A stretch of DNA of 64,000 nucleotides, from the NCBI RefSeq assembly GCF_003762905.1, contig NZ_RJKS01000004.1, positions 1 to 64,000 of the forward strand, written 5' to 3'. Both the position numbers and the translations under genes were made by a program. Below, piece by piece: positions 3,843 to 53,986 of the stretch; position 1 is the stretch's first letter, and each line of letters begins with the position of its first letter. The notes beneath the pieces are model-generated. The model worked only from the letters and a program-made list of their open reading frames with translations. It was not told where the DNA came from and ran no database searches. The stretch comes from Curtobacterium sp. ZW137. Its GTDB lineage: Bacteria > Actinomycetota > Actinomycetes > Actinomycetales > Microbacteriaceae.

Positions 3843-4424
3843 ATGGTGGACGCTCGGATCCTGCACACGACGGCAGCGCTGCGCGAGGCGATCCTCCGAC
3901 TCGCCGCGGACCGTCCCGTCTCCGAGATCACGGTCGCGGACGTCACGCGCGCCGCCGGGATCAACCGTGCGACCTTCTACTCCCACGCCGTGTCGCCGGG
4001 GTCGCTCCTCGCCGACGTGCTCACCCCGGAACTCGACCGGATCCGTGACGACGACTCCGAGGCACGTCGGGCGGCGTACGAGCGCGGCGCCGACCGTGAC
4101 GAACTCGCGGCGATCACCCGCAAGGGCATCAACGCCGTCGTCGAACACGTGGTGCTGCACCGCGAGATCTACGTCCGGGCACTCCCGGACCCGAACGACG
4201 CCTCGTTGCACCGGCTGCTCGTGGAGCACTTCACGGTGTCGAGTGCGCTGCACATCCGGGAGCTCGACGCGGCCTCCCGGCCCGAGCTCCTCGACGACGT
4301 CGCTGCGGGCTTCGTCGCGCAGGGCTTCGTCGGGGCGATCGAGGCGTGGCTCGCGGGCACGCGGCGCTCCCGGAAGGCCCTGGTCGACACCATCACGCGG
4401 TCCTTCCCCGCGTGGTGGAGCTGA
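3843..4424 (+). CDS. TetR/AcrR family transcriptional regulator
   Basis: A 193-residue DNA-binding repressor. The N-terminal helix-turn-helix region spans roughly residues 8-55 and includes ITVADVTRAAGINRATFYSH, the classic TetR recognition segment; the remainder is an all-helical ligand-binding and dimerisation domain with no diagnostic motif. ATG at 3843 is preceded by GAAGAGGGGG; an open frame continues further upstream but is out of character. The gene is divergent from the Bcr-type exporter and probably controls it and itself. The 3' end is odd: the last ~24 coding bases plus the stop are repeated once more downstream (4401-4435 and 4436-4470, 32 of 35 bases identical). Confidence 0.87.
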   Translation: MVDARILHTTAALREAILRLAADRPVSEITVADVTRAAGINRATFYSHAVSPGSLLADVLTPELDRIRDDDSEARRAAYERGADRDELAAITRKGINAVVEHVVLHREIYVRALPDPNDASLHRLLVEHFTVSSALHIRELDAASRPELLDDVAAGFVAQGFVGAIEAWLAGTRRSRKALVDTITRSFPAWWS

Positions 4425-4470
4425 CCCGCGCGCAGTCCTTCCCCGCCTGGTGGAGCTGGCCCGCGCGCGG
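4401..4470 (+). repeat. 35-bp duplication of the tetR 3' end
   Basis: Unit 4401-4435 covers the last codons and stop of tetR; unit 4436-4470 repeats it with three mismatches, one of which turns TGA into TGG. The second unit runs directly into a 19-base tandem array. Confidence 0.8.
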
Positions 4471-4565
4471 TCCTTCCGCGCGTAGCCAGTCCTTCCGCGC
4501 GTAGGCGGTCCTTCCGCGCGTAGGCGGTCCTTCCGCGCGTAGGAAGTCGTTTCGCGCGTAGGCAG
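4471..4565. repeat. Five 19-bp tandem repeats (TCCTTCCGCGCGTAGGCGG)
   Basis: Units at 4471, 4490, 4509, 4528 and 4547 share the core CGCGCGTAGG. The core is also found, with the same 19-base spacing, at the end of the sensor kinase gene near 16042-16080. The array fills the gap between the convergent tetR and lipoprotein genes. Confidence 0.85.
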
Positions 4566-4592
4566 TCGCTTCTTTCGACCGCCTACGCGCGA
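4551..4592. terminator. Bidirectional hairpin between convergent genes
   Basis: CGCGCGTAGGCAGTCG (4552-4567) can pair with CGACCGCCTACGCGCG (4576-4591) with one mismatch, closing a short TTCT-containing loop. It stands between the ends of tetR (rightward) and the lipoprotein gene (leftward), so it can serve both. Confidence 0.6.
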
Positions 4593-4620
4593 ATCCGCTT
4601 TCCAGCGCGCGCGTGATGGG
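4576..4620 (-). repeat. 45-bp dispersed repeat, copy 1 (inverted to copy 2)
   Basis: The reverse complement of this segment matches 15983-16027 at 43 of 45 positions. Both copies lie next to a gene end and next to CGCGCGTAGG units, as in REP/BIME-like intergenic elements. Confidence 0.8.
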
Positions 4621-4691
4621 TGCGAACGCGCGTGGTCAGCGGCCTGGAGGCGCGGTGCCGGGCCGACACGGGCCTCCCGTCCGGTGGGACC

Positions 4692-4755
4692 GCGACCAGT
4701 GCACCCGGGTCGCGTCAGCCCGGGGCGCGACCAGTGCACCCGGGTCGCGTCAGCC
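4692..4755. repeat. Two identical 29-bp direct repeats overlapping a stop codon
   Basis: 4692-4720 and 4727-4755 are identical (35-base period). The second copy contains the stop codon of the leftward lipoprotein gene (TGA, complement of 4750-4752); the first copy carries the same TGA downstream. Each copy can fold through GCGACC/GGTCGC. Confidence 0.85.
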
Positions 4756-5295
4756 GTCGGCCGGTTTCTCACCCCGCTGCAGTGCGGTGACCGCGTCGAC
4801 GGAGTGCTCCACGAGCGCCGCGTCGGTGTCCCCGGTGACGCGGTAGTCCGCGGAGACGCCGTCCCCGCCGGTGCCGCTCGCCGGCAAGCGGTCTCCGAGC
4901 CCGACGACCACGACCCCGGCGTCGTGCGCTGTCTGGAGCTCCCCGGTCAGTGCCGAGGCGTCCTCGGCCTGGACGAGCAGCGCCTTCGCGCCGGTGCGGA
5001 CGAGTTCACGGACGGCCGTGCGCTGCGACGAGACCGGGTCGGCAGCCGTGGCGACGCGCACATCGGGGCGGAAGCCGGCCTCGGTCAGCTCGGTGCGGAA
5101 CTCCGCGGGCAGGGTGTCCGCGTCCGAGGCCTGCAGGACCACACCGACCACGGCGTGCTGGTCGAACCCGCCGTCGGAGCTGGTGAGGTCCGTGCTCTTG
5201 ACCGGCGTCGGAGCCTGCGACGTGGTGCCGGTGCACCCGGCCAGCACGGCGACGGCACTCACCGCCAGTGCGGCGGCGGCCAGGATGCGGCGCAC
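4750..5295 (-). CDS. Lipoprotein with periplasmic-binding-protein-like fold
   Basis: A 181-residue exported lipoprotein. GTG at 5295 follows a strong GAGGAGGA ribosome site; the N-terminus VRRILAAAALAVSAVAVLAG ends in a lipobox LAGC, so the mature protein would be anchored by Cys near residue 21. The rest resembles half of a sugar-type (type I) periplasmic binding domain: beta-alpha repeats such as HAVVGVVLQASDADTLPAE and AKALLVQAEDASALTGEL. At this size it is shorter than the usual ~330-residue binding proteins, and no ABC permease is adjacent, so it may be a truncated or stand-alone sensor-like protein. The stop codon lies inside a 29-base direct repeat. Confidence 0.65.
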   Translation of the reverse strand: MRRILAAAALAVSAVAVLAGCTGTTSQAPTPVKSTDLTSSDGGFDQHAVVGVVLQASDADTLPAEFRTELTEAGFRPDVRVATAADPVSSQRTAVRELVRTGAKALLVQAEDASALTGELQTAHDAGVVVVGLGDRLPASGTGGDGVSADYRVTGDTDAALVEHSVDAVTALQRGEKPADG

Positions 5296-5357
5296 GGTTC
5301 CTCCTCGATACGGGTCTGCCACGCTACCCGGTCGTCGCAGCGGACGACGGCGGGGCC

Positions 5358-5402
5358 GACGACGGCGCGCCCGACTACGGCGCGCCCGACGACGGCCCGC
5401 CC
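5358..5402 (-). repeat. 15-bp tandem repeat spanning the stop codon of an MFS gene
   Basis: Units 5358-5372, 5373-5387 and 5388-5402 (GACGACGGCGCGCCC and variants) encode Gly-Ala/Pro-Pro-Ser-Ser in the C-terminal tail. In the middle unit one base change creates the TAG stop; the unit beyond it is still readable in frame, so the tail was probably longer before. Confidence 0.7.
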
Positions 5403-6775
5403 GACGACGACGGCGGCGGCACCGGCCCGAGCCGCCGCACCGCGAACAGCCCGACGAGCGCGATGACGATCATCGCGGCGAAGACCGACGCGAACGCGAG
5501 CGCGTCCTCACGGCCCCCGACCGCCGTGAACAGGATCCCCGCGACCGCGAGCCCGACCACGCTGCCGGAGGCGTCCGCGATGGTCAGGGCGGAGCTGGCG
5601 AACCCGTCGTCGCCCTCGCTGGAGAACCGGAGCGTCAGCATCGACGTCCGCGGGTACGCGACGCCCATCCCGGCACCGCCGACGAACCAGCCCGCGACGA
5701 GCACCCACACCGGCAGGTCCGCGACTGCCACGGCCAGAGCGGCGACGAGGCTGACCAGGACCAGCCCGAGGCCGACGCCGAAGGCACGGGCGGCGGCCAG
5801 CCGGCGCTCCCCCATCCGCCCGTGCACCCAGCTCGCACCGGCCCAGCTGAGCGCGGCGACGGTGAGCGCGAGCCCGGCGGCGGACGGCGAGAGCCCGTGC
5901 TGCGCCTGGAGCAGGAAGGGGACGTAGGCCTCGCTGCCGAAGAACCCGGCGGCGAGGACCCCGCGGAGCAGGACCACGGACGGCAGCCCGGGGCCGGCGG
6001 TGAACGTGCGGCGTGGCAGCAGCGGACGGAGTGCGAACCACGCGCCGACCAGCCCGACGACGACCGCGACGGCACCCAGGGCGACGGGCAGGTCCGGTGC
6101 CACGTTGAGGAGCAGGACGGCCACGGCGGCAGCGACCGACCACACGATCCGGCTCCGCTGCCACGGTGGCCGGAGCGCGGCGGCCGGCGCGTGCAGGTGC
6201 CGGAGCGTCGGGACGAGCAGGGAGAACGCGACGACGGCGATCACGAGGGCCCCCGCGAACACCCAGTGCCAGCTCGCGAGCTCGGTGACGAAGCCGGCGA
6301 GCGCCGGACCGACCAGGGCGGGCACCACCCAGGCGGCGGCGAACCCGGCGAAGACCGGGCCGTGCAGGTCCTCCGGGAAGATCCGGGCGACCAGCACGTA
6401 GAGGACGACGTCGATCGCGCCGGCGCCGAACCCCTCGACCAGACGCCCGGCGAGGAACACCGGCATCGTCGGGGCGAGCATCACGATCGCCGTGCCGACG
6501 GCGAAGAGCGCGGCGGACACCCATGCGACCACCCGGCCTCCGGCTCGGTCCGTCCAGTTGCCGGCGAGCACCATCCCGGGCACGCCGGCGGCCAGGGGCG
6601 CGGCGAAGCTCAGCGAGTACAGGGTCTCGCCGTGCAGGTCCCGGCTGATCTCCGGCATGACCGTGGTCATGGCGAGGTTCTGGAACGCGGCGACGGCGAC
6701 GATGGCGACCATCCCGATGGTCGGGAGGGCGTACCCCCTGCTGAACAGGGTCGTCCTCGTCGCCGTCGTGGTCAC
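5375..6775 (-). CDS. MFS transporter (DHA2-like exporter)
   Basis: A 466-residue membrane transporter with about fourteen hydrophobic segments, most like the multidrug/DHA2 branch of the major facilitator superfamily; substrate unknown. The loop after helix 2 reads GNWTDRAGGR, matching the conserved MFS loop, and helix 4-5 region has the glycine-rich GRLVEGFGAGAID typical of this branch. The C-terminus ends in a Ser/Gly/Pro repeat tail. The GTG start at 6775 has TAGCCT six bases upstream (6782-6787), the leaderless arrangement common here. It follows metB by 56 bases on the same strand and could also be read from that transcript. Confidence 0.8.
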   Translation of the reverse strand: MTTTATRTTLFSRGYALPTIGMVAIVAVAAFQNLAMTTVMPEISRDLHGETLYSLSFAAPLAAGVPGMVLAGNWTDRAGGRVVAWVSAALFAVGTAIVMLAPTMPVFLAGRLVEGFGAGAIDVVLYVLVARIFPEDLHGPVFAGFAAAWVVPALVGPALAGFVTELASWHWVFAGALVIAVVAFSLLVPTLRHLHAPAAALRPPWQRSRIVWSVAAAVAVLLLNVAPDLPVALGAVAVVVGLVGAWFALRPLLPRRTFTAGPGLPSVVLLRGVLAAGFFGSEAYVPFLLQAQHGLSPSAAGLALTVAALSWAGASWVHGRMGERRLAAARAFGVGLGLVLVSLVAALAVAVADLPVWVLVAGWFVGGAGMGVAYPRTSMLTLRFSSEGDDGFASSALTIADASGSVVGLAVAGILFTAVGGREDALAFASVFAAMIVIALVGLFAVRRLGPVPPPSSSGGPSSGAP

Positions 6776-6843
6776 CGCATCAGGCTAGCGGCGGAGGGGC
6801 CCGCCGCGCCCGCCGGCTCCACCGCATCGGGCTAGCGGCGGAG
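6773..6843 (-). repeat. 24-bp repeat joining the metB stop and the MFS start
   Basis: 6773-6796 and 6820-6843 match at 23 of 24 bases with a 47-base period. The right copy contains the metB TAG stop; the left copy contains the same TAG as part of a TAGCCT box and the GTG start of the MFS gene. Confidence 0.8.
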
Positions 6844-7977
6844 CGCCTGTCGCACGTCCTCGACCAGGTCGCCGGCGTCCTCGATGCCGACCGACAGCCG
6901 CACGACGTTCTCCGGGACGGCGAGCTCGGTGCCCTTCACCGACGCGTGCGTCATCTCGCTCGGGTACCCGATGAGCGACTCCACCCCGCCGAGCGATTCG
7001 GCGAGCGCGAACAGCTCGGTGGACTCCGCGAACCGCTTGGCTGCGTCGGGCCCGCCGGCGAGCGCCACCGAGAGCATCCCGCCGAAGCCGCGCATCTGCT
7101 TCGCCGCGACGTCGTGCCCCGGGTGGTCGCTGAGGCCCGGGTAGTAGACGCGCTCGACGGCGGGGTCGCCGACGAGCGCCTCGGCCACGGCCTGCGCGTT
7201 CTGCGAGTGCCGCTCCATCCGGATCGGCAGCGTCTTGATGCCGCGGATCGTGAGCCAGGCGTCGAAGGGGGACGAGATCGCACCGCCGCCGAACTGCAGG
7301 AACGCCACCTTGTCGGCGAGCTCCTGGTCGCGCAGGACGATCGCGCCACCGACGACGTCCGAGTGGCCGCCGAGGTACTTCGTGGTGGAGTACGCGACGA
7401 CGTCGGCGCCGAGCGACAGGGGCTGCTGGAGGTACGGCGACGCGAAGGTGTTGTCGACGACCACGAGCGCGCCGGCGTCGTGCCCGAGGGCGGCGAGCGC
7501 CTCGATGTCCGCGATCTTCATGAGCGGGTTCGTCGGCGTCTCGACCCAGAGCACGGTCTGCGCCGGTGCGTCCTGCAGTGCGGCGCGGACCAGGTCGAGG
7601 TCGCTCATGTCGACGACGACGAGCTCGACGCCCCACGGCACGTGCAGCCGGTTCACCAGGCGGTGCGTGCCGCCGTAGACGTCGTTGCCCATCACGACGC
7701 GGGCGCCGGGCGACAGGGTGGCGCGGAGCAGTGCGTCCTCGGCCGCGAGGCCGGAGGCGAACGAGTACGCGGCGACGCCGCCGTCGAGGTCCGCGAGCAT
7801 CGTCTGCAGCGAGTCCCGCGTCGGGTTGCCGGAGCGGGAGTACTCGTAGCCGCCCCGCATCTCCCCGATGCCGTCCTGCACGTACGTGGACGTCAGGTGG
7901 AGCGGCGGGATCACGGCGCCGGTGGCGCCGTCGGGCTCCTGTCCGGCGTGGACGGCTCGGGTGCTGAACTCGGTCAT
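6832..7977 (-). CDS. metB: Cystathionine gamma-synthase / trans-sulfuration PLP enzyme
   Basis: A 381-residue cytosolic PLP enzyme of the Cys/Met metabolism family that joins an activated homoserine to cysteine to give cystathionine (or acts as gamma-lyase; the two are hard to separate by sequence). The PLP lysine is in AYSTTKYLGGHSD, the substrate/PLP region SRSGNPTRDSLQ is near residue 55, and WVETPTNPLMKIADI is intact. ATG at 7977 has GGAGAACGCACC upstream. Directly upstream is cbs (cystathionine beta-synthase), so the pair probably interconverts homocysteine and cysteine. The stop codon lies in a 24-base repeat shared with the start of the next gene. Confidence 0.9.
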   Translation of the reverse strand: MTEFSTRAVHAGQEPDGATGAVIPPLHLTSTYVQDGIGEMRGGYEYSRSGNPTRDSLQTMLADLDGGVAAYSFASGLAAEDALLRATLSPGARVVMGNDVYGGTHRLVNRLHVPWGVELVVVDMSDLDLVRAALQDAPAQTVLWVETPTNPLMKIADIEALAALGHDAGALVVVDNTFASPYLQQPLSLGADVVAYSTTKYLGGHSDVVGGAIVLRDQELADKVAFLQFGGGAISSPFDAWLTIRGIKTLPIRMERHSQNAQAVAEALVGDPAVERVYYPGLSDHPGHDVAAKQMRGFGGMLSVALAGGPDAAKRFAESTELFALAESLGGVESLIGYPSEMTHASVKGTELAVPENVVRLSVGIEDAGDLVEDVRQALRR

Positions 7978-7995
7978 GGTGCGTTCTCCAGGTCG

Positions 7996-8009
7996 GACGG
8001 GAGGCTCGG
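7996..8009. repeat. GACGGGAGGCTCGG dispersed motif
   Basis: One instance of a short motif (core GGGAGGCYCGG) that recurs at 1925, 15926, 18510, 38010, 45454 and 52159. Here it lies upstream of metB, just before the ribosome binding region. Confidence 0.5.
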
Positions 8010-8051
8010 ATCGCGTCGGCCGCGCACCGCTCGCTGGGTGCGCTGCCGCGC

Positions 8052-8123
8052 TCACTCGGACAGGTCGGCTTACTCGGACTGGTCGGCTTACTCGGACTGG
8101 TCGGCTTACTCGGACAGGTAGGT
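8052..8123 (-). repeat. Four 18-bp tandem repeats, each with an in-frame stop
   Basis: Units at 8106, 8088, 8070 and 8052 (leftward order) repeat the last codons of cbs. Read in the cbs frame, each ends Ser-Glu-stop: TAA at 8106-8108, 8088-8090 and 8070-8072 and TGA at 8052-8054. The period equals six codons. Confidence 0.92.
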
Positions 8124-9470: not shown

Positions 9471-9521
9471 GCGGACGAGTCTAGGCGGCGCACCCGAGTC
9501 CCTCCGGAGCGTGACGGGCGG

Positions 9522-9779
9522 CTACGACGCGAGCGAGGAGGGCGCCCCTGTGGGCGCGACGTGGGCCGTCACCGCTGCCGAGACCTCGGCGCGACGCCGG
9601 TCGATGACGTCGCCCATGTCGCGAGCCAGCGCGGGGGTGGACCGCACGATCTGGTCGAGAGCGGTGGCGGGCACGACCAGCACCGCGACCTCGGTGAGGG
9701 CGACGGCGGTGGTGAGCAGTGCCTCCCGGGTCAGCGCCGTCTGCCCGATGTGGTCGCCGGTCTCGACGCGGGTGGCGGG
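9522..9779 (-). pseudogene. C-terminal fragment of a cyclic-nucleotide-binding-domain protein
   Basis: The leftward frame encodes about 85 residues ending at TAG (complement of 9522-9524): RVETGDHIGQTALTRE, then LLTTAVALTEVAVLVVPATA, then MGDVIDRRRAEVSAAV. This looks like the last beta strands and the C-helix of a CRP-type cNMP-binding domain, as found at the end of some mechanosensitive-channel-like proteins. No start codon with a ribosome site is visible and the upstream part is replaced by a 14-base tandem array, so I read it as the stump of a decayed gene. Confidence 0.5.
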
Positions 9780-9809
9780 GAGGTCCGGGCTCGCCGAACC
9801 GGGTCCGCT

Positions 9810-9893
9810 GGTCCGGATCCGCCGGTCCGGATCCGCCGGTCCGGATCCGCCGGTCCGGATCCGCCGGTCCGGATCCGCCGGTCCGGGTCCGCC
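9810..9893. repeat. Six 14-bp tandem repeats (GGTCCGGATCCGCC)
   Basis: Units start at 9810, 9824, 9838, 9852, 9866 and 9880; the first five are identical and the last has one change. The unit contains the palindromes TCCGGA and GGATCC. The array sits between the ABC exporter stop (9963) and the decayed gene fragment. Confidence 0.95.
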
Positions 9894-9962
9894 TCGGCCT
9901 CGGCCTCCGCCCCGGCATGGAGGCTCGGCCCGCGCCCGCCCCGCTCCTTCCCCCCGGGCGCG

Positions 9963-11843: not shown

Positions 11844-12005
11844 GCGAGCTCCTTCCGCCCGGCGCGACCCGGACGGTCCGCTCACCCGAGCAAATGTAGC
11901 CCCGCCGTGGGACATCGGCCCCTCCGCTGGACCGATCTGTGGAATTGACCCCTGTTCGGGGCCGTGCGAGCATGACCCGTCCCGTTCCACGCACCACGAG
12001 GTCCC

Positions 12006-15982: not shown

Positions 15983-16027
15983 CCCATCACGCGCGCGCTG
16001 GAAAGTGGAATCGCGCGTAGGCGGTCG
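15983..16027 (+). repeat. 45-bp dispersed repeat, copy 2
   Basis: Matches the reverse complement of 4576-4620 at 43 of 45 positions (both begin CCCATCACGCGCGCGCTGG). It continues into the hairpin and stop codon of the sensor kinase gene. Confidence 0.8.
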
Positions 16028-16053
16028 GAACTTCCGACCTCCTACGCGCGATT
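16009..16053 (-). terminator. 22-bp stem terminator after the sensor kinase
   Basis: 16009-16030 pairs with 16032-16053 with a single mismatch and a one-base centre, an almost perfect palindrome containing CGCGCGTAGG. It lies 8 bases beyond the kinase stop on the leftward strand. Confidence 0.75.
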
Positions 16054-16060
16054 CGACTTC

Positions 16061-17584
16061 CTACGCGCGATTCGGCACGTGGGCCCAGGCATCGTCGGCG
16101 GGCGCGGCGCCAGCGGCGGCGGCGGCGCCGGCGGCCGCGGCGCCGTCGGCGCCCTCCGGCGGCGCAGCCGGCAGGTGCACCGTGAACACGGTGTCCCCCG
16201 GCACGCTCGCCACCGCGACGGACCCGCCGTGCGCCTGCACGACCGCGTCGACGATCGCGAGCCCGAGGCCCGTCGAGCCGGCGCTCCGCGACCGCGAGCT
16301 GTCCGCCCGGGCGAACCGCTCGAACAGCTTCGGCAGGAACTCGGGGTCGATCCCCTGCCCGGTGTCCCGGACGGTGAGGTCCACGCCGTCACCGACGGGG
16401 GTGAGGCCGACCGTGATGCGGGTGCCCTCCGGGGTGTGCGTCCTGGCGTTGGTGACGAGGTTCACGATCACCTGGTGCAGCCGCGCGGCATCCCCCAGCA
16501 CGACGACCGGCGTGGAGGGCACGTCGACGGAGATCTCGTGGTCCGGCGACGCCGCGTGCGCGTCGTTCACCGCGTCGAACACCAGCCCGGTCAGGTCGAC
16601 GTCGTCGAACTGGATCTCCCGGCCCTCGTCGAGGCGGGCGAGGAGCAGCAGGTCCTCGACCATCGACGTCATCCGGACGGACTCGGACTCGATGCGGCTC
16701 ATCGCGTAGACGACGTCCGGCGGCAGGTCGCCGCCCATCCGGCGGGTGAGCTCGGCGTAGCCGCGGACCGAGGCCAGCGGCGTGCGGAGCTCGTGCGAGG
16801 CGTCGGCGACGAACTGCCGGACCTTCTGCTCGGAGCGTTCCCGGGCCTGCATGGCGCCGCCGATGTGTCCGAGCATCCGGTTGAACGCGGCGCCGACGCG
16901 GCCGACCTCGGTGCGTGGATCGGTGTCGGGGACGCGCACGCCGTCGAGGGCGTCGCTGCGTTCCAGCGGCATCCGCGCGACCGTGGACGCGGTCTCCGCG
17001 ACGCGTTCGAGGGGGCGGAGGGAGCGCCGGACGACGACCGCGGCGACGACGGAGGCGACCACGAGGGCGGCACCGACGACGAAGATGACCACCCAGAGCA
17101 GTGACCACACGCTCTGGTAGACCGGCGACATCGGCAGCCCGACCACCAGCACGGCGTCGTCGAGGTACCCGTTGTCCACGCGGACGGCGGCGACACGGTA
17201 GGTCCCGGTGCTGCCGAGGTCGATGGTCGCGGGGGCGATGCCGACCTTGACCTGCCCGAGGCGCTGCAGCTGGTCGGCGCTGAGCGACGAGGGCGAGCCG
17301 TCGTCCTCGATCACGATGCCACCGGCACGACCGCCGGTGAAGTAGTACGCGGTCAGGGTCCCGGCTGCCTGTCCCGCCGGGCGGAGCACGTCGTCACCCG
17401 GGGGCTGGGAGGTCTGCCCCTGCCCGAACTTGTTCGTGGCACGCTTCGTCGCGGTCTGGAGCTGCTGGTCGATCGCGCCCGTCTGGATCGAGGCGAGCGC
17501 GATGATGCTGCCCGCGCCGATCACCGCGCTGACGGCGACGACGAGGGCGACGATGCTCAGGACGAGCCGGCGGCGCAGTGTCAT
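16061..17584 (-). CDS. Two-component sensor histidine kinase
   Basis: A 507-residue membrane kinase. Residues 7-31 and about 160-185 are membrane helices framing a ~130-residue extracellular sensor domain; a HAMP linker follows (about 186-240), then the dimerisation/phosphoacceptor segment FVADASHELRTPLASVRGYA with His264, an N box (VIVNLVTNARTHTPEGTR), and G boxes (DTGQGID, GSTGLGLAIVDAV). The last ~40 residues are an Ala/Gly-rich tail. ATG at 17584 is 13 bases after the stop of the response regulator gene, so the two are cotranscribed. The stimulus is not readable. The stop TAG falls inside a CTACGCGCGATTCG unit that is repeated 19 bases downstream. Confidence 0.93.
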   Translation of the reverse strand: MTLRRRLVLSIVALVVAVSAVIGAGSIIALASIQTGAIDQQLQTATKRATNKFGQGQTSQPPGDDVLRPAGQAAGTLTAYYFTGGRAGGIVIEDDGSPSSLSADQLQRLGQVKVGIAPATIDLGSTGTYRVAAVRVDNGYLDDAVLVVGLPMSPVYQSVWSLLWVVIFVVGAALVVASVVAAVVVRRSLRPLERVAETASTVARMPLERSDALDGVRVPDTDPRTEVGRVGAAFNRMLGHIGGAMQARERSEQKVRQFVADASHELRTPLASVRGYAELTRRMGGDLPPDVVYAMSRIESESVRMTSMVEDLLLLARLDEGREIQFDDVDLTGLVFDAVNDAHAASPDHEISVDVPSTPVVVLGDAARLHQVIVNLVTNARTHTPEGTRITVGLTPVGDGVDLTVRDTGQGIDPEFLPKLFERFARADSSRSRSAGSTGLGLAIVDAVVQAHGGSVAVASVPGDTVFTVHLPAAPPEGADGAAAAGAAAAAGAAPADDAWAHVPNRA

Positions 17585-28487: not shown

Positions 28488-28537
28488 GGTCAGACCAGGG
28501 TCTGCCCCGCGGTCCCGCAGGTCAGACCAGGGTCTGC
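28488..28537 (-). repeat. 18-bp palindromic repeat duplicated at a stop codon
   Basis: GGTCAGACCAGGGTCTGC occurs at 28488-28505 and 28520-28537. The right copy contains the TGA stop of the Gfo/Idh/MocA gene. Each copy is a hairpin CAGACC-AG-GGTCTG. Confidence 0.85.
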
Positions 28538-29667
28538 TCTGCGGGGTCCCAGCCCTCGTCGAGGGTCTGGGAGGGCGACACGGTGCTCGCAACGAGCACC
28601 GCCTCGCCACGTTCGGCGCTCTCGGCGATGGAGACCATCACGTCGAGGGCGTGGAAGGCGAGCGCACCGGGAACCCGGTTCGTCTCGCCCGCACGGAGGG
28701 AGCGGGCCAGGTCGACCACGCCGGTGCCGCGCGAGTAGGTGGAGCCGACGGCCGCGATGGTCTCGGGCTCGTCGGCACCGAGCGAGTACAGCTCGGTGTC
28801 GCCGTCGAAGTTGTTCGGGTCCGGGAACACGACGGTCCCGGTCTCACCGGCGATCTCGACGACACCGGTGCGGCCGCGGTCGGACTCGAACGAGAAGACG
28901 CTCTGGGCGCTCCCGCCGTTCTCGAACTCGATGAGGGCCGAGTGGTTCGTCGGGACCTCGACCGGGAACTCGGTGCCGGCCTTCGGACCCGAGCCGATGG
29001 TCCGCGTGGCACGCGACTTCGACGAGGTCGCGGTGACCTTGGCGACCGGGCCGAACACCTGCACGAGGGTCGTGATGTAGTACGGGCCGATGTCGAACAG
29101 CGGGCCGGCGCCGTAGGCGAAGAGGAACTCGGGGCTCGGGTGCCAGGACTCCGGGCCGGGGCTCTGGAAGAGCGTCAGGCCGTTGAGGGGCGTGCCGATC
29201 CGGCCGTCGCGGATGGTGCGGAGCGCGGTCTGCAGGCCGGCGCCGAGGAACGTGTCCGGGGCGACGGAGACCGTGAGGCCGGCGGCAGCTGCGGCGTCGC
29301 GGAGCTGCGCGGCGCTCTCGCGGTCGAGAGCGTAGGGCTTCTCGCCCCAGACGTGCTTGCCGGCGGCGATGGCCTGCAGGGCGACCTCGACGTGGGCGGC
29401 CGGGATGGTCAGGTTCACGACGATCTCGATGTCGTCGTCGGCGAGGAGCTCCGCCACCGAACCCGAGCGAGCGACGCCCCACTTGGCGGCCTGCTCCGCG
29501 GCGCGGGGCTCGTCGATGTCGGCGATGAAGCGGACCTCGACGTCGGGGAAGACGGTGAGGTTGCCGAGGTACTGGTCCGAGATGACCCCGGCGCCGATGA
29601 CGCCGACGCCGACCGGGCCGGTCTTGGTGGACTTGCTGACCGCGGGGGTCACAGCGGTGTCGGTCAT
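28522..29667 (-). CDS. Gfo/Idh/MocA-family oxidoreductase
   Basis: A 381-residue NAD(P)-dependent sugar/inositol dehydrogenase-like enzyme. The dinucleotide motif GVIGAGVISDQYLGNL lies near residue 20 of the Rossmann domain, and GKHVWGEKPYALDRES contains the EKP motif with the conserved lysine. The C-terminal beta domain is intact to the end. It overlaps the isomerase/epimerase gene by four bases (ATGA), so the two probably act on the same sugar. The TGA stop sits in a duplicated 18-base palindrome. Confidence 0.92.
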   Translation of the reverse strand: MTDTAVTPAVSKSTKTGPVGVGVIGAGVISDQYLGNLTVFPDVEVRFIADIDEPRAAEQAAKWGVARSGSVAELLADDDIEIVVNLTIPAAHVEVALQAIAAGKHVWGEKPYALDRESAAQLRDAAAAAGLTVSVAPDTFLGAGLQTALRTIRDGRIGTPLNGLTLFQSPGPESWHPSPEFLFAYGAGPLFDIGPYYITTLVQVFGPVAKVTATSSKSRATRTIGSGPKAGTEFPVEVPTNHSALIEFENGGSAQSVFSFESDRGRTGVVEIAGETGTVVFPDPNNFDGDTELYSLGADEPETIAAVGSTYSRGTGVVDLARSLRAGETNRVPGALAFHALDVMVSIAESAERGEAVLVASTVSPSQTLDEGWDPAEQTLV

Positions 29668-33555: not shown

Positions 33556-33655
33556 TCAGATGCCGTTGACGCCCAGCGGGATGGGTCCTGTGAACCCTGT
33601 GCCGAAGGTCGTCAGATGCTGTTGACGTCGAGCGGGATGCCCGGGCCGAAGGTCG
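33556..33655 (-). repeat. Degenerate second copy of the rplA 3' end
   Basis: Bases 33556-33611 repeat the last ~44 bases of rplA (33612-33655) with a 12-base insertion and a few changes. Read in its own frame it gives TFGTGFTGPIPLGVNGI-stop, against [18 protein letters not shown] for the real gene. The copy lies directly beyond the stop. Confidence 0.85.
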
Positions 33656-40073: not shown

Positions 40074-40457
40074 ATGCAAGTGGACAGCACGATCGAGTTC
40101 GCCGTGCACACCGGTGACCGGTACACGGCGATGGAGCTCGCGGGGGCCGCGCTGCGCTCCGCGGGACACCGGGTGGACGCGACGCCGGGGGCCATCGTCG
40201 CGGAGTCCGGGAACCGGCTGCTCACCGTGCTCCTCGGCGCACTCGTGCACCCGTCGCGGGAGTACCGCCGCTACGAGCTCGTCGTCTCCACGTTCGGGGG
40301 TCGCTCCACGCTGACGCTGCGGCACGCGGCGCCCGGCACGGCCGTGGCGGGCGGGTCGATCGGCGCCGCGCGGCGGCGGGCGGGGTGGCACCACGTCACC
40401 GGGCTCGTCGAGGGGGCGCTCCGCGCCGCCGGCGTGCTCGTCGCGCCGCCGCGGTAG
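40074..40457 (+). CDS. Hypothetical protein, 127 aa
   Basis: Not recognised. The sequence (FAVHTGDRYTAMELAGAALR near the start, LTVLLGALVHPSREYRRYEL in the middle) looks like a small soluble alpha/beta protein without membrane or signal segments. ATG at 40074 is four bases after GAGGGG; GTG at 40080 is better spaced from that ribosome site and may be the true start. A TATGCT box is at 40028-40033. It stands alone between the hadA promoter and tRNA-Met, where rpmG is often found in related genomes. Directly after the stop come 21-base tandem repeats. Confidence 0.6.
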   Translation: MQVDSTIEFAVHTGDRYTAMELAGAALRSAGHRVDATPGAIVAESGNRLLTVLLGALVHPSREYRRYELVVSTFGGRSTLTLRHAAPGTAVAGGSIGAARRRAGWHHVTGLVEGALRAAGVLVAPPR

Positions 40458-40519
40458 CGCTGCCGCGAGCCGCGCGGGCGCTGCCGCGAGCCGCGCGGGC
40501 GCTGCCGCGAGCCGCGGGC
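40458..40519. repeat. 21-bp tandem repeats after the hypothetical gene
   Basis: CGCTGCCGCGAGCCGCGCGGG at 40458-40478 and 40479-40499 is followed by a partial third copy. The array begins at the first base after the stop codon. The remaining spacer to 40715 is GC-rich with a GCGACA/TGTCGC hairpin at 40576-40624. Confidence 0.85.
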
Positions 40520-43118: not shown

Positions 43119-43152
43119 GCCCCGATCCTCCCAGGACGACCCGGCGCCTCGC

Positions 43153-43198
43153 ACGGGACCAATCAGACACGGGACCAATCAGACACGGGACCAATGAG
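43153..43198. repeat. Three 16-bp tandem repeats (ACGGGACCAATCAGAC)
   Basis: Copies at 43153-43168, 43169-43184 and 43185-43198 (last one partial) lie between the tRNA-Tyr terminator and the IMPase gene. Confidence 0.95.
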
Positions 43199-43200
43199 AA

Positions 43201-45473: not shown

Positions 45474-45492
45474 GCCGTCCCGCCGGCTGCGG

Positions 45493-46587: not shown

Positions 46588-46599
46588 GGGCCGGACCCG

Positions 46600-47967: not shown

Positions 47968-48029
47968 TGATCGTCTCCAGTTCGTTCGGGTGGGGTGCTC
48001 CCGGTGGCTGTGCTGGTCTGTGGGGTGCG

Positions 48030-48070
48030 GCGTCAGCGGCTGCGGTCGGCCGCGTCAGCGGCTGCGGTCG
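48030..48070 (-). repeat. 19-bp repeat duplicated at the polyprenyl synthase stop
   Basis: GCGTCAGCGGCTGCGGTCG at 48030-48048 and 48052-48070 (22-base period). The right copy contains the TGA stop of the polyprenyl synthase gene; the left copy repeats it downstream. Confidence 0.85.
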
Positions 48071-49131
48071 ACCACGGACTCCGCGAAGCGGGTGAGCGCG
48101 CGCTTGACGACGCCGTCCGGCAGCGGTGCGAGGGCCACGACGGCCTCCGTCGCCCACTGCGCGGCGAGCGCCCGCGTGGCGGCCGTGGCCTCGTGCTCGC
48201 GGAGCGCGGCGACCGCGGAGAGGTACGTGTCGGTCGTGACCGCGTCGTCCGGGGCGCCGGTGACGTCCCGTTCGATGCGCGCCACGAGCTCTGCGGCGCC
48301 CGGCTCGGTGGCCGCGCGGCGACGGAGCTGGAGCAACGGCAGGGTGTCGACGCCGGCGCGGAGGTCGTTGCCGGCGATCTTCCCCGTCTTGTCCTTGGCG
48401 GGAGCGAGGTCGATGACGTCGTCGACGAGCTGGAAGGCGACGCCGACCTTCTCGCCGAAGGTCCCGACCGCTTCGAGGTAGGCACGGTCGGCGCCGGAGA
48501 ACAGGATCCCAGCGCGGGCGGCGGTCGCGATGAGCGATCCGGTCTTGTCGCTGAGGACCTGGATGTAGTGCTCGACGGGGTCGTCGTCCGGCTGCGGCCC
48601 GGTGGTCTCGTGCAGCTGGCCCATGCAGAGGCGCTGGAAGGTCTCGGCCTGCATCCGGATGCCTTCGGGCCCGAGGTCGGCGGTGATCAGGCTGGCACGG
48701 GCGAAGAGCAGGTCGCCGGTGAGGATCGCGACGTTGTTGCCGTAGGTCACGTGCGCTGCCGGGACCCCGCGGCGGACGGGCGCTTCGTCCATCACGTCGT
48801 CGTGGTACAGCGAGGCGAGGTGGGTCGTCTCCACGCTCACCGCAGCCTTCACGACGTGGTCGGTGACGCCGTTGCCGAGCTGTGCGATGAGCAGGGTCAG
48901 CGTCGGCCGGATGCGCTTGCCACCCGCGGAGAGCAGGTACCGGCTGGTCGTGTCGGCCAGGGTGTCGGCGGAACGCATCGCGTCCTCGAGCCCCTGCTCG
49001 ACGAGCTCGAGCCCGTCGTCCACGGCGGTGATGAACCGACGCTCGGCCGGGCTGGCGAACAACCGCTCGCCGATGCCGAGCGAGGCTCGGAGACTCGGTG
49101 CGCGACGTGCGACCGGGACGCTCGGGTTCAA
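48055..49131 (-). CDS. Trans-polyprenyl diphosphate synthase (menaquinone side chain)
   Basis: A 358-residue prenyl chain elongase. First Asp-rich motif is in LYHDDVMDEAPVRRG (DDxxD), the second in FQLVDDVIDLAPAKD, with GGKRIRPTLTLLIAQ at the isopentenyl site. The length and genome position next to menG indicate synthesis of the menaquinone polyprenyl tail rather than carotenoid precursors. TTG at 49131 follows GGAGCAGCAC. Its stop lies in a duplicated 19-base segment. Confidence 0.92.
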   Translation of the reverse strand: MNPSVPVARRAPSLRASLGIGERLFASPAERRFITAVDDGLELVEQGLEDAMRSADTLADTTSRYLLSAGGKRIRPTLTLLIAQLGNGVTDHVVKAAVSVETTHLASLYHDDVMDEAPVRRGVPAAHVTYGNNVAILTGDLLFARASLITADLGPEGIRMQAETFQRLCMGQLHETTGPQPDDDPVEHYIQVLSDKTGSLIATAARAGILFSGADRAYLEAVGTFGEKVGVAFQLVDDVIDLAPAKDKTGKIAGNDLRAGVDTLPLLQLRRRAATEPGAAELVARIERDVTGAPDDAVTTDTYLSAVAALREHEATAATRALAAQWATEAVVALAPLPDGVVKRALTRFAESVVDRSR

Positions 49132-49177
49132 GTGCTGCTCCGTGGTTCGGGGGTCCGTGTGCGGATGGAGGGGCAGG

Positions 49178-49969
49178 TCAGCCGTCGGTCGGCTCGACGC
49201 GCGGCTGTTCGCCGGTGGCCTGGTGCTCGCGCCGGGCCTTCGCGCGGCGTGCGACCGATTCGCGGACCGTGCCGGCGACCGGCTTCCGGCCGCGGTGCAG
49301 CGCGACGATGCCGGCAGTCAGGTTTCGGTACGCCACCATCGTGAACCCGACGCCGCGGAGCCACTGGCTGAGCACCTGCTGCTCCGGCCATGCCTCGATC
49401 GACTCGGCGAGGTAGCGGTACGCCGCCGGGTTGCTGCTCGACAGGCGCGCGATGCCCGGGAGGACGCGCTTGAGGTACGTGCCGTAGCCGAACCGGAGCG
49501 CGGCGAGCGGCGGGGTGGAGAACTCGCAGATGACGACGCGGCCGCCGGGCTTCAGGACCCGGAGCATCTCGCCGAGCGCCTGCATCGGGTCGTTCACGTT
49601 GCGGAGACCGAACGAGATCGTGACGGCGTCGAAGGTGTCGTCGTCGAACGGGAGGTGTTCCGCGTCCCCCTCGACGAAGGTGATCTCCGGGTGGCGTTCA
49701 CGGCCGACGGCGATCATCCCGGCCGACAGGTCGAGCGCGCTCACCTCTGCGCCCTTCTTCGCCAGGGCCGCGGCGCTGGTGCCGGTGCCGGCCGCGATGT
49801 CGAGCACGCGCTCGCCGGGCTGGGGATCGACGGCGCGCACGGTGGCGACCCGCCACAGCGGGGCGTTGCCGGCGGAGAGGATGTCGTTGGTCAGGTCGTA
49901 CTTCTCCGCGACGTCGTCGAACATGGCCGCCACCTCGTCCGGCCGCTTGTGCATGTCCGCTCTGCTCAC
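49178..49969 (-). CDS. menG: Demethylmenaquinone methyltransferase
   Basis: A 263-residue SAM methyltransferase of the UbiE/MenG family, making the last methylation of menaquinone. Motifs: DIAAGTGTSAAALAKKGAEV (SAM), LPFDDDTFDAVTISFGLRNV and EMLRVLKPGGRVVICEFSTP. GTG at 49969 is seven bases after TAGGAT (49977-49982), so it is probably leaderless. It heads the leftward menG-polyprenyl synthase-fprA-acyltransferase operon and is divergent from menF. Confidence 0.95.
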   Translation of the reverse strand: MSRADMHKRPDEVAAMFDDVAEKYDLTNDILSAGNAPLWRVATVRAVDPQPGERVLDIAAGTGTSAAALAKKGAEVSALDLSAGMIAVGRERHPEITFVEGDAEHLPFDDDTFDAVTISFGLRNVNDPMQALGEMLRVLKPGGRVVICEFSTPPLAALRFGYGTYLKRVLPGIARLSSSNPAAYRYLAESIEAWPEQQVLSQWLRGVGFTMVAYRNLTAGIVALHRGRKPVAGTVRESVARRAKARREHQATGEQPRVEPTDG

Positions 49970-50016
49970 CCGACCAATCCTAGAGGTCCGTCCCGTACGT
50001 TGCCGGTACACCCGCC

Positions 50017-50088
50017 GCGGCGCTGTCCGGCGAATCCGGCGCGGCGCTGCCCGGCAGGTCCGGCGCGGCGCTGCCCGGCAGGTCCGGC
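50017..50088. repeat. Three 24-bp tandem repeats between menG and menF
   Basis: Units at 50017, 50041 and 50065 (GCGGCGCTGCCCGGCAGGTC plus four bases; first copy diverged) fill the gap between the two divergent -10 boxes and overlap the region where the menF -35 element should be. Confidence 0.92.
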
Positions 50089-50103
50089 GCGTACGATCGG
50101 TCC

Positions 50104-51363
50104 GTGACCCGTACCGCCACGGCGGCTCCGCCGCTCACGGTCTCGACCCGGATCCTCGACGACCCGGGCGCCGTGCTCCGACACACCCTCCCCGACCAGC
50201 CGCTCGCCTTCGTGCGCAACGGCGACGGCATCATCGGGATCGGTGAGGCGCTGCGGTTCGAGTTCACCGGCCCGTCCCGGATGCGCGACGCCGCCGAGGT
50301 GTGGCGCGACATCGTCGAGCGTGCCGTCGTCGACGACCCGGTGCAGCTCCGCGGTTCCGGGCTCGTGGCCTTCGGCGCCTTCGCGTTCGCCGACGACTCC
50401 GCGGCGACGAGCGTGCTCATCGTCCCCCGTGTCGTCGTGGGGCGCCGCCGCGGCAAGGCGTGGCTGACCGCGATCGACACGACGCCGGACCCCGCTCCCC
50501 TGACCTTCACGCGTACCTCGTTACCGGTGCCGCACGTCGGCCCGCACCTGTCGGTCGCGCTCGTTCCCGGCCGGATCGACGAGGACGCCTACGCCGCGTC
50601 CGTCGCCGAGGCCGTCCGCCGCATCACCGCAGGCGATGCCCGCAAGGTGGTGCTCGCCCGCGACCTGGTCGGCACCCTCCCTGCCGGCGCCGACCGCCGC
50701 GCGCTGCTCCTCGACCTCGCCGCGACGTACCCGCAGTGCGTGACGTTCGCGGTGGACGGGCTCGTCGGCGCGACCCCCGAGACCCTCGCCCGCACCGACG
50801 GCACCCGTCTGACCGCGCGGGTCCTCGCGGGCAGCGCGGCCCGTGGGAGCGACGCCGTCTCGGACCGTGCCGCCGCCGAGGCGCTGGCATCCAGCGCGAA
50901 GGACGTCGAGGAGCACACGTTCGCCATCGCGTCCCTCGTCGACGCGCTCCGACCGCTCGCCGCGGACCTCCGCGTCGACCCGGAGCCGTTCCGGCTGCAG
51001 CTGCCGAACCTGTGGCACCTCGCCAGCGACGTGCAGGCCACCCTGCCGGAGGACACGACGTCCCTCGACATCGCCGACGCGCTGCACCCGACGGCCGCGG
51101 TCGCGGGGACCCCGACCGACGTCGCGGTGCGGCTCGTCGCGGAGCTCGAGGGCATCGACCGCGGACGCTACGCCGGGCCGGTCGGCTGGCTCGGTGCGTC
51201 GGGTGACGGCGAGTGGATGCTCGCGCTCCGCAGCGCCCAGATCGACGACGACGGGACGGTCACCGCGTGGGCCGGTGCCGGCATCGTCGGCGGGTCGGAC
51301 CCGGCGCGCGAGGTCGCCGAGACCGCGCTGAAGTTCCGCCCGATCCGCGACGCACTGGCGTAG
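50104..51363 (+). CDS. menF: Isochorismate synthase
   Basis: A 419-residue chorismate-utilising enzyme that converts chorismate to isochorismate at the start of menaquinone synthesis. The C-terminal chorismate-binding domain carries GDARKVVLARDLVG, TARVLAGSAARG (T/S for isochorismate over anthranilate), LHPTAAVAGTPTDVAVRL and YAGPVGWLGASGDGEW. GTG at 50104 is six bases after TACGAT (50092-50097). It is convergent with menD. Confidence 0.94.
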   Translation: MTRTATAAPPLTVSTRILDDPGAVLRHTLPDQPLAFVRNGDGIIGIGEALRFEFTGPSRMRDAAEVWRDIVERAVVDDPVQLRGSGLVAFGAFAFADDSAATSVLIVPRVVVGRRRGKAWLTAIDTTPDPAPLTFTRTSLPVPHVGPHLSVALVPGRIDEDAYAASVAEAVRRITAGDARKVVLARDLVGTLPAGADRRALLLDLAATYPQCVTFAVDGLVGATPETLARTDGTRLTARVLAGSAARGSDAVSDRAAAEALASSAKDVEEHTFAIASLVDALRPLAADLRVDPEPFRLQLPNLWHLASDVQATLPEDTTSLDIADALHPTAAVAGTPTDVAVRLVAELEGIDRGRYAGPVGWLGASGDGEWMLALRSAQIDDDGTVTAWAGAGIVGGSDPAREVAETALKFRPIRDALA

Positions 51364-51407
51364 CGGAACGGCGCCGACGCGCACCGCCCGGCCCGCCGCA
51401 GCGCCGC

Positions 51408-53291
51408 TCAGTCGGCCAGCGGCACCTCGATGACGACCCGTTCGGCGGGGTCGGTGAGCACCCGTTCGAGGTCGCCCCAGGTCGCGGCCCGGCGGTACTC
51501 CCACCCGAGCCCCGTGACGACCCGCTCGACGTCGACGTGCTGCGGCGTCGTCATCATCCGCCGCATGTCCGCGGCCGGGGTGGTCTCCGCCACCTCGAGC
51601 CCGCGGAAGATCGCGCCGCCCTCGTCGTTGCCGAGGACCACCTGGACCCGCTGGGTCCGTTCCTCGGTGCCCGTGACCAGTGCACCGACGTCGTGCAGCA
51701 GGGTCAGGTCGCCGAGCAGCACCCGTGTCGTTCCGCCCGCCGCCTGTGTCGTCTCGAGCGCAGCGGCGATGCCGAGCGCCGTCGAGACGGTGCCGTCGAT
51801 GCCGGCGAGCCCACGGTTGGCGTGCACCCGGATCTTCTTGCCGGCGACGCGGCCGTCCGCGACGCGGATGATCTGCGACGCGCCGAGCACGAGCCGGTCG
51901 TGCGGCCAGGTCACACCCCACACGGCGTCGGCGAGCATGGCGCGGTCGACGGGTCGACGACGGAGCGCCACCTCGTCCTTGAGGAACCGGTTCCGCTCGG
52001 CGCGGTCCTCGGACCGCTTCGCGTCGAGGTCTGGCCCGGCGTCGCCGTCGCCGAGTACGGCACGGCTGGCAGCGACCCAGCGTCCCACCCACGCACGGTG
52101 TCCGGGGCTGGTCCGGCCCGTCACGCGGACGTCGGACACGAGCGTGGTCGGTTCGTCCGGACGGGAGGCTCGGCTCGGCTCGTACGGGTCGGCCCCCGCC
52201 CCACGGACGGTCACCACCTCGACGTCGTCGCGCTGCAGGAGCGCCGGGACCTCTCGGCTGAGCGTCGGGTGTCCGAGCACGACGGCGCGGCGGACCCGGC
52301 CGCCGAACTCCGGGTCGCGGAGCAGCTCGCGGTAGGTGACGACGAGGTTCCGGCCGTAGCGCGCCCCGCTCGACACCTCCGCCAGCAGCGGCGCTCCGAG
52401 CTCCCACGCGACCCGCTCGGCGTCCTCGCCGGCGTCGTGCCCGGCGATCACCACGGTCGCGGGGTCGTCGTCCGGCGTGAGTTCCGCGACGGGCAGGCCG
52501 GTGTGCACGCGTCGGGTGGCGTAGGCGGTGTCGATCTCGTCGTCGGGGACGCCCGCGACGTCGTGCAGTGTGGCCGACAGGGGTTCACGGAACGCCACGT
52601 TCACCTGGGCCGGACCGGGCTGACCGGTGTGTCCGGAGGCGGCGGCCACGGCTTCGCGGGCGATGCCCCGGACGACCTCGCGGGTGCCGTCGTCGACGCC
52701 GTGGGCGGTCGGCGCCTCGACTTCCCGGACGAACGACACCGCGTCGGCGAAGATGCCGGGCTGCACGGTGGTCTGGTTGCTGCCGATGCCGCGGAGTTCG
52801 CTCGGCCGGTCGGCGGACACGACGAGCATCGGCACGCCGGAGTGGTGCGCTTCGAGCACGGCCGGGTGCAGGTTCGCGACGGCGGTGCCCGAGGTCGTGA
52901 CGACCAGCGCGGGTCGGCCGGTCTCGATCGCCAGGCCGAGCGCGAAGAACCCGGCGGTCCGCTCGTCGAGACGGACGTGCACGGTGATGCCGCCGGCGCG
53001 TTCGAGCGCGACGGCGGCGAGGGCCAGCGCCTGGGAGCGTGAGCCCGGGCTGACCACGACCTCGGTCACACCGGCGCGGGCGAACTCCTGCAGCAGCGCG
53101 AGGGCGAAGTCCGACGCCGGACTGCCGGACGCGGGGTGTCCGTCGCCGTCAGCGATCGGTGCGGCCGTCGTCGTCCGTGTCGTGGAACTGTTCTTCGAGG
53201 TTTCGGAGGGTCGCGTCGTCCTGGTCCTTGTCCGTGCGGGGCCGCTCGGGAGCCTGCTCGCCGAGGAAGTCCGGGTCGTCTTCGGGACCAC
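51408..53291 (-). CDS. menD: 2-succinyl-5-enolpyruvyl-6-hydroxy-3-cyclohexene-1-carboxylate synthase
   Basis: A thiamine-diphosphate enzyme joining isochorismate and 2-oxoglutarate in menaquinone synthesis. The conserved protein starts near 53115 (ASDFALALLQEFARAGVTEV), with SPGSRSQALALAAVALE, DERTAGFFALGLAIETGRPA, TTSGTAVANLHPAVLEA and the ThDP/Mg motif GDLTLLHDVGALVTG followed by VVLGNDEGGAIF. The start is a puzzle: from GTG 53291 there is no in-frame ATG, GTG or TTG down to the conserved part, and the intervening ~58 residues are Thr/Ser/Arg-rich and antisense-like, overlapping the PLDc_N gene by 143 bases. An ATC at 53156 overlapping the PLDc_N stop is a possible non-standard start. The body of the enzyme is intact. 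Confidence 0.93.
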   Translation of the reverse strand: MVPKTTRTSSASRLPSGPARTRTRTTRPSETSKNSSTTRTTTAAPIADGDGHPASGSPASDFALALLQEFARAGVTEVVVSPGSRSQALALAAVALERAGGITVHVRLDERTAGFFALGLAIETGRPALVVTTSGTAVANLHPAVLEAHHSGVPMLVVSADRPSELRGIGSNQTTVQPGIFADAVSFVREVEAPTAHGVDDGTREVVRGIAREAVAAASGHTGQPGPAQVNVAFREPLSATLHDVAGVPDDEIDTAYATRRVHTGLPVAELTPDDDPATVVIAGHDAGEDAERVAWELGAPLLAEVSSGARYGRNLVVTYRELLRDPEFGGRVRRAVVLGHPTLSREVPALLQRDDVEVVTVRGAGADPYEPSRASRPDEPTTLVSDVRVTGRTSPGHRAWVGRWVAASRAVLGDGDAGPDLDAKRSEDRAERNRFLKDEVALRRRPVDRAMLADAVWGVTWPHDRLVLGASQIIRVADGRVAGKKIRVHANRGLAGIDGTVSTALGIAAALETTQAAGGTTRVLLGDLTLLHDVGALVTGTEERTQRVQVVLGNDEGGAIFRGLEVAETTPAADMRRMMTTPQHVDVERVVTGLGWEYRRAATWGDLERVLTDPAERVVIEVPLAD

Positions 53292-53502
53292 GGTACCGGG
53301 CCGTGCGCTCCGGAGCGGCAGGTGCACGACCGAGGACGAACCACAGCAGGCTGCCGACGACGGGCAGGATCACGATGAGCAGCAGCCAGAGACCGCGACG
53401 GAGCGACCGGATGCGCTGCTTCGGCATCGTCGCACAGTCGATGAGCGCGTACACCGTGAACGCCACGGCGGCGACGACGACGACGAGCCACAAGCGGATC
53501 AT
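53149..53502 (-). CDS. PLDc_N-domain membrane protein
   Basis: A 117-residue small membrane protein. Two N-terminal helices (MIRLWLVVVVAAVAFTVYAL and LWLLLIVILPVVGSLLWFVL) flank the LIDCATMPKQRIRSLRRG loop; this is the phospholipase-D N-terminal-like (PLDc_N) module often found alone, function unknown. The C-terminal ~60 residues are acidic and disordered. ATG at 53502 is seven bases after TACGCT, leaderless style. Its end lies just before the conserved part of menD, which is probably translationally coupled to it. Confidence 0.8.
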   Translation of the reverse strand: MIRLWLVVVVAAVAFTVYALIDCATMPKQRIRSLRRGLWLLLIVILPVVGSLLWFVLGRAPAAPERTARYRGPEDDPDFLGEQAPERPRTDKDQDDATLRNLEEQFHDTDDDGRTDR

Positions 53503-53566
53503 GCGGTGCAGCGTACGTCGTGAGGCTGTGACCGACCTCACGGTCGGGCGTCCGTAGACTTGCCGC

Positions 53567-53893
53567 GTGAAAGCGTGGCTCGTCTACACCCTCGCCCGTC
53601 TCGGCATCTTCGCGGCGGCGCTCGTCGTGCTGTTCGTGATCGGGCTGCCCTGGTACTGGGCCACGATCGGCGCGGCCCTCATCGGGCTGCTCGTGTCGTA
53701 CATCGCACTGCCCCGGTTGCGCGGCCAGGTCACGACGAACCTCGCGAACCGGCGCGGGCGTCCGGAGCACGACGCCGACTCGGACTTCGAGGACGACTTC
53801 GTCGACGCCGAGGACACCGACGCTCCCACCGCGCGGCCGGTCTCGGATGCCGATCGGCACGCCGAGCGCCGGGACCACCCGGCCGCCGACTGA
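53567..53893 (+). CDS. DUF4229 membrane protein
   Basis: A 108-residue protein with two helices (IFAAALVVLFVIGLPWYWAT, AALIGLLVSYIALPRLRGQV) and an acidic, disordered C-terminus; it matches the actinobacterial DUF4229 family, function unknown. GTG at 53567 follows TAGACT (53555-53560) by six bases, so it is likely leaderless. It is convergent with menA and divergent from the PLDc_N gene. Confidence 0.8.
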   Translation: MKAWLVYTLARLGIFAAALVVLFVIGLPWYWATIGAALIGLLVSYIALPRLRGQVTTNLANRRGRPEHDADSDFEDDFVDAEDTDAPTARPVSDADRHAERRDHPAAD

Positions 53894-53941
53894 GCCGCTA
53901 CCGCTCCCGCGCCCAGGCTCCGGCGTCAACAGCCGCAGGGC

Positions 53942-53986
53942 TTGCGGCTGCAGGGCTTACGGCTGCAGGGCCTACGGCTGCAGGGC
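53942..53986 (-). repeat. 15-bp tandem repeats of the menA 3' end with stops
   Basis: Units 53972-53986, 53957-53971 and 53942-53956 repeat the last five codons of menA (Ala-Leu-Gln-Pro-stop). In the menA frame the first has TAG, the second TAA and the third CAA. A fourth, degenerate unit follows at 53927-53941. Confidence 0.92.

Follow-up and report, generated by a model that had tools for sequence, protein, structure and literature searches.

Short tandem duplications around gene ends in a Curtobacterium chromosome

Duplications at the gene ends of the window

The stretch of DNA analysed here, called the window, comprises positions 1-64000 (64,000 nucleotides) of contig C4 from a genome of 3.90 Mb in nine contigs, and the top relatives of its metB gene belong to Curtobacterium. 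Our own codon-based gene caller places 60 genes in it. The genic fraction is 87% in the window and 84% in the first sample, composed of the window and 40 further 20-kb stretches (864 kb and 768 genes in all), and falls to 38-39% in two stretches and 64% in two genomes of the relatives, so that stops can be trusted more than gene starts and long gaps. At the family level Pfam agrees with eight of the ten gene names used below (menA, for instance, falls in UbiA and metB among the Cys/Met PLP enzymes); no Pfam match at 1e-8 was obtained for the products of tetR and the lipoprotein gene, and both names, like HerA, are those of the original prediction. An Rfam scan of the window returned four tRNAs and nothing else, and known RNA families were therefore rejected as a source of the repeats.

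Duplications were sought by gap-free self-alignment (period 9-80, match +1, mismatch -2, score of at least 16). The ten main gene-end duplications originally predicted were all recovered in place, and all cross the stop codon. The TetR-like gene (3843-4424, plus strand) carries a 35-bp tandem duplication across its stop (4396..4481), the second copy of which has no stop triplet. The other nine cases are on the minus strand. The lipoprotein-like gene (4750-5295) has a duplication spaced at 35 bp just past the stop (4691..4755), with six bases, including the stop, inside the gene. A 15-bp array occupies the C-terminus of the MFS gene (5375-6712; array 5343..5409), the stop lying within one copy; in two relatives, L049 and L051, the MFS gene ends at a point matching a window site further downstream, in the same frame as judged by eye. 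A 24-bp sequence recurs at 47-bp spacing across the stop of metB (6832) and the MFS leader (6773..6843). At the end of cbs (stop 8106-8108) there is an 18-bp in-frame array, each copy with a stop (8050..8119). The histidine kinase gene (16061-17584) ends in a duplication of 19-bp period (16035-16074) lying within a dispersed element, termed element A (15990..16074). The Gfo/Idh/MocA gene (28522-29667) has a duplication spaced at 32 bp across the stop (28488..28544), rplA (stop 33612) a 28-bp match at 56-bp spacing across the stop (33556..33639), and the polyprenyl synthase gene (48055-49062) a 19-bp match at 22-bp spacing, also across the stop (48030..48070). Finally, menA, of the UbiA family (stop 53972), bears a 15-bp in-frame array at its end (53935..53987). 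The ten cases are thus heterogeneous: one is part of the dispersed palindrome with the 19-bp unit, one a repeat in coding sequence that includes the stop, and eight are local duplications.

A weaker case assigned to the HerA-like gene (97-147) did not emerge from the self-alignment scan; Tandem Repeats Finder makes a single 23-bp call there, with a score of 32 (108-130). Within the HerA-like gene itself (132-2228) there is a 36-bp repeat at 1845-1923. It is also worth mentioning that several gaps of the window contain arrays. The gap 5' of cbs holds a 14-bp array of 6.8 near-perfect copies (9799-9893), and others lie at 40457-40516, 43152-43199, 50012-50091 and 58692-58751; the first of these four shares a single base with a called stop, and the last starts directly after such a stop.

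That such duplications exceed chance is borne out: 188 were found in the 864 kb of the first sample, window included, against two in a control consisting of one shuffled copy, with genes shuffled by codon and gaps by dinucleotide. The window appears rich even within this sample, with stop-spanning duplications at 10 of its 60 genes where the 708 genes of the remaining stretches have 16 duplications (Fisher p 8e-6), a comparison that is unfair because the window was picked for looking rich. Coverage of the 3' flanks is 18% in the window and 11% in the other first-sample stretches, and four neighbouring stretches of the same contig (L209-L212) are unremarkable, with three duplications in 78 genes. 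The excess of the window is probably mostly a matter of ascertainment. Tandem arrays are hard to assemble from short reads, and the genome is in nine contigs; similar duplications, albeit less frequent, nevertheless occur in the single-contig chromosomes G015 and G017, and we consider an assembly artefact extremely improbable. Long G and C runs resembling an assembly fault were noticed in L049 past the lipoprotein gene.

Several of the copies had also been described as keeping an in-frame stop, with selection for duplicated stops as a possible cause. By eye, a stop triplet is present in a further copy in eight of the ten cases, the exceptions being tetR and MFS; it is in frame only in cbs and menA. 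These two in-frame cases are what might be expected if duplicated stop codons were kept as a safeguard against readthrough. The frame distribution goes against it, since periods that are multiples of 3 make up 10 of the 25 stop-spanning cases found outside the window and 3 of the 10 in it, near one third, and so does the rarity of stop-spanning duplications at the ends of these genes in relatives (4 of 42 cbs ends, window included, and 1 of 29 menA relatives). Selection for duplicated stops is accordingly highly improbable.

Distribution around gene ends, gene starts and gaps

The first-sample duplications comprise 92 intergenic and 62 intragenic ones, 24 crossing a stop, two crossing both a stop and a start, one crossing a start, and seven at edges. 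In the 62 intragenic duplications the period is divisible by 3 without exception. Coding DNA more than 30 bp before the stop is covered to 0.3-1.2% and the last 30 bp to 1.5-3.1%; coverage past the stop is 8.7% at 0-15 bp and 13-14% at 30-75 bp, and in the 15 bp preceding starts it is 0.6%.

Gene ends far exceed gene starts, as the original prediction implied. In the 1.196 Mb outside the window stop-spanning duplications were found at 28 of 1088 genes and start-spanning ones at 4 of 1088, and a duplication was present in 91 of 531 3' flanks of 60 bp against 24 of 616 5' flanks of the same length. The hold-out sample alone (20 stretches, 396 kb, 380 genes) gave 11/380 and 1/380 for spanning duplications and 32/187 and 11/221 for 3' and 5' flanks, respectively. 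The 3' bias is real and repeats in the hold-out stretches.

The comparison with other intergenic DNA gave a different result, and the supposed targeting of gene ends found no support in it. At intergenic intensity 32.6 stop-spanning duplications would be expected in the first sample, window included, and 26 were seen, an expectation which includes placements reaching far into the gene and which a stricter rule would lower; for start-spanning duplications three were seen against 35.5 expected, the two duplications that cross both a stop and a start being counted in both the 26 and the three. Outside the window the density is 2.33/kb in convergent gaps (70 in 30.0 kb), 0.74/kb in codirectional gaps (60 in 81.2 kb) and 0.18/kb in divergent gaps (6 in 32.6 kb). 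In convergent gaps of 60-300 bp the values are 2.29/kb in the 30 bp next to a stop, 5.14/kb in the following 30 bp and 3.44/kb deeper, and no end bias of placement was detected there (KS p=0.41, n=38, which gives modest power). Codirectional gaps of the same size are flat at 1.35-1.38/kb and then drop to 0-0.48/kb once the next start is less than 60 bp away, and divergent gaps have 0-0.5/kb.

A sign to the contrary comes from pooling all gaps, where the density of duplication junctions peaks at about 3/kb 15-45 bp past the stop and is 1-2/kb further out. Similarly, codirectional gaps of at least 150 bp have 1.4-2.3/kb in the 90 bp nearest the stop and 0.4/kb beyond them. In gaps of 150-350 bp the effect is missing (1.52/kb in the middle, 0.88/kb within 30 bp of the stop), which is why the pooled peak is put down to the content of long gaps; we think that their poor interiors may reflect uncalled genes and regulatory DNA.

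Both the pooled peak and the order of gap types would fit a local process that duplicates DNA preferentially at the 3' ends of transcripts, for example where transcription and replication collide, or polymerases stall, in convergent gaps. Convergent gaps, however, are also those without promoters, and constraint alone would give an identical order; moreover, placement in these gaps shows no bias towards their ends, and in-frame duplications are present within genes too (62). Such a process is in our estimation rather unlikely.

Dispersed palindromes and 3' hairpins

Element A occurs twice in the window. Beside tetR (4470..4615, plus strand) it consists of tandem 19-bp units (4470-4572), next to which come an inverted unit and an outer arm, and at the histidine kinase gene (minus strand) the stop codon of the gene lies inside the 19-bp unit. 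The genome of the window, G000, contains 69 exact matches to the unit, against none for the reversed pattern, and 18 of the 19 clusters in 1.26 Mb are intergenic. Of 60 Curtobacterium genomes, 25 have at least one match to the unit and 15 of these have three or more; single matches occur in 8 of 147 other Microbacteriaceae genomes. Within the first sample the motif accounts for 13 of the 126 duplications not wholly inside genes. Further sites were noticed at L016 2822-2932 and L036 17947-18061, and at L048 3497-3961 there is another gene with its stop codon inside the unit, like the histidine kinase gene of the window. The Y1 transposase (PF01797) is absent from G000 and 23 other Curtobacterium genomes and was found in 5 of 14 control genomes; a RAYT-borne REP origin of element A was rejected because none of these 24 Curtobacterium genomes has it. 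A second dispersed palindrome, around TGTCGTACGACA, forms 10 clusters in 1.26 Mb, seven of them in convergent gaps and five multi-copy; its sites include L016 18028-18112 and L023 5450-5534, and a variant lies at about 2280-2335 of the window.

The palindromic nature of element A (one of the ten cases, and beside tetR), together with the position of 15 of its 18 intergenic clusters closer to a stop than to a start, would be in keeping with repeats preserved by selection as 3' hairpins or terminators, as had been suggested. The folding of duplicated flanks points the other way: the median z is -0.47 for 82 duplicated 3' flanks and -0.96 for 150 sampled unduplicated ones (Mann-Whitney p 0.024), so duplicated flanks fold more weakly, not more strongly. 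This test used flanks of at least 70 bp with partial overlaps excluded and kept four flanks with the 19-bp motif separate; the GC content of the folded flanks was 0.82 for duplicated and 0.71 for unduplicated ones. Selection for hairpins thus appears very unlikely.

Relatives, proposed explanation and known systems

Relatives were collected through metB; 80 of 298 matching loci were retained, and tblastn matches stopping short of 75% of the query were excluded. In the Curtobacterium group a stop-spanning duplication is present at 9 of 43 gene ends for metB (counting the window), 4 of 42 for cbs, 4 of 39 for the lipoprotein gene, 5 of 40 for MFS and 2 of 36 for tetR. At all five ends the repeat units are species-specific; the periods at metB ends run from 13 to 70 among the matches listed. 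There are pairs of species with 95-96% DNA identity in metB or cbs whose duplication states differ. Not all of these cases are independent, since some close relatives have a common state and two MFS ends share period 39. The cbs array is not present in L049, the closest relative by metB (93%), whose cbs product has identical final residues and whose sequence continues directly with that following the last copy in the window; this suggests insertion of the copies at the stop. In 29 relatives menA ends, by eye, at the position of the window gene and none has the array of the window, L232 having its own weak 23-bp stop-spanning duplication and L240, L248 and L256 duplications just downstream. In both menA and cbs the end of the protein is unchanged despite the duplication. 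In L084, an uncultured Curtobacterium genome, at least 14 copies of an 8-bp repeat were seen directly at the metB stop.

In the metB neighbourhood stop-spanning duplications affect 20 of 362 genes at 42 Curtobacterium-group loci and 5 of 379 at 38 other loci, mostly from named Microbacteriaceae genera, about four times as many per gene in Curtobacterium. The first set of stretches from relatives' genomes came from contig starts, presumed to lie often near the replication origin, with L139, L151 and L163 left out for their short contigs, and gave 3/302 and 1/295 (coverage of 3.4% and 3.0%). Mid-genome stretches, added later, gave 7/352 in ten Curtobacterium genomes and 1/364 in ten others, with coverage of the first 100 bp past stops at 7.8% and 4.2%, respectively. 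The genus effect stands out at metB, is weak in the other samples and may be due in part to base composition, as the metB neighbourhood has a GC content of 0.718 in the Curtobacterium group and 0.683 in the others, and duplicated noncoding DNA is richer in GC (0.784 against 0.687). The excess at metB also speaks for the 3'-end process discussed above. A version of it restricted to the genus, with a raised rate of short tandem duplication at transcript 3' ends, mostly of convergent genes, perhaps through transcription-replication conflict, and gene tails remade in each species, is unlikely as well, slightly more so than the general form. If upheld at matched GC, the genus effect would offer a clue to the determinants of tandem-duplication rates, and the arrays might be of use as strain markers.

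A loss of mismatch repair peculiar to Curtobacterium was rejected: all 39 genomes searched lack MutS (PF00488) and have NucS (PF01939). Of these, 24 are Curtobacterium and 15 represent other families of the order, with no other Microbacteriaceae genus in the set. NucS reportedly acts on transitions (PMC8228993, PMC5290159). We infer that slippage loops of 10-80 bases escape it. Duplication of gene ends by an integrase was set aside on the grounds that the copies are adjacent and differ between loci.

The duplications are, with good probability, ordinary short tandem duplications that occur genome-wide in GC-rich, duplication-prone DNA and are filtered by selection. They would arise throughout the GC-rich genome, the mutational step presumably being replication misalignment (slippage), and selection rather than mutation would shape the profile of positions. 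Within genes only in-frame duplications would survive, those near starts and promoters would be eliminated, and those in the 3' flank would be nearly neutral; a duplication crossing the stop would leave the protein unaltered, the first stop copy remaining in use. Gene ends would then seem special simply for lying at the border of the tolerated zone. A selective filter can in this way mimic targeting: neutral duplications gather where they are harmless, and the stop is the edge of that zone. Among 172 duplications not wholly inside genes the median divergence between copies is 5.9% and 49% have more than 2.5 copies; perfect two-copy cases number nine, a small n for the study of microhomology at duplication ends.

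Among known systems, the mycobacterial MIRU/VNTR loci are similar in being tandem repeats in actinobacterial gaps that differ between isolates, as described in PMC2734929; there, the rnc stop and the fpg1 start are reported to be separated by direct repeats of 279-358 bp in the tuberculosis complex, and by no more than a few bases in other species. As in intergenic VNTRs or minisatellites, the Curtobacterium copies lie head to tail with few mismatches, and their state differs between close species. MIRUs, however, measure 40-100 bp and occupy 41 places, whereas the Curtobacterium repeats are mostly unrelated, locally made units of 9-80 bp; one dispersed family common to the loci was not found, most units looking unrelated by eye, and dispersed repeat families other than the 19-bp motif are present. 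The Beggiatoaceae TAACTGA repeat differs in being a single fixed heptamer mostly facing the start codon, while the Curtobacterium units vary by locus and avoid starts. Tandem repeats of archaeal Borgs, characterized in PMC9879509 as rapidly evolving, recent and independently arising, are alike in these respects, but Borgs are extrachromosomal and the Curtobacterium repeats are on a bacterial chromosome. Element A alone resembles the REP/BIME sequences, short dispersed extragenic palindromes in many copies according to PMC2817692, and differs from them in that its genome lacks a Y1 transposase and its 19-bp unit is amplified in tandem. A search for literature on Curtobacterium and intergenic tandem repeats brought up nothing on the subject by title, which does not prove absence in print. 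On the best reading, the duplications at these gene ends are of a known kind: intergenic tandem duplications of ordinary cause, tolerated past the stop.
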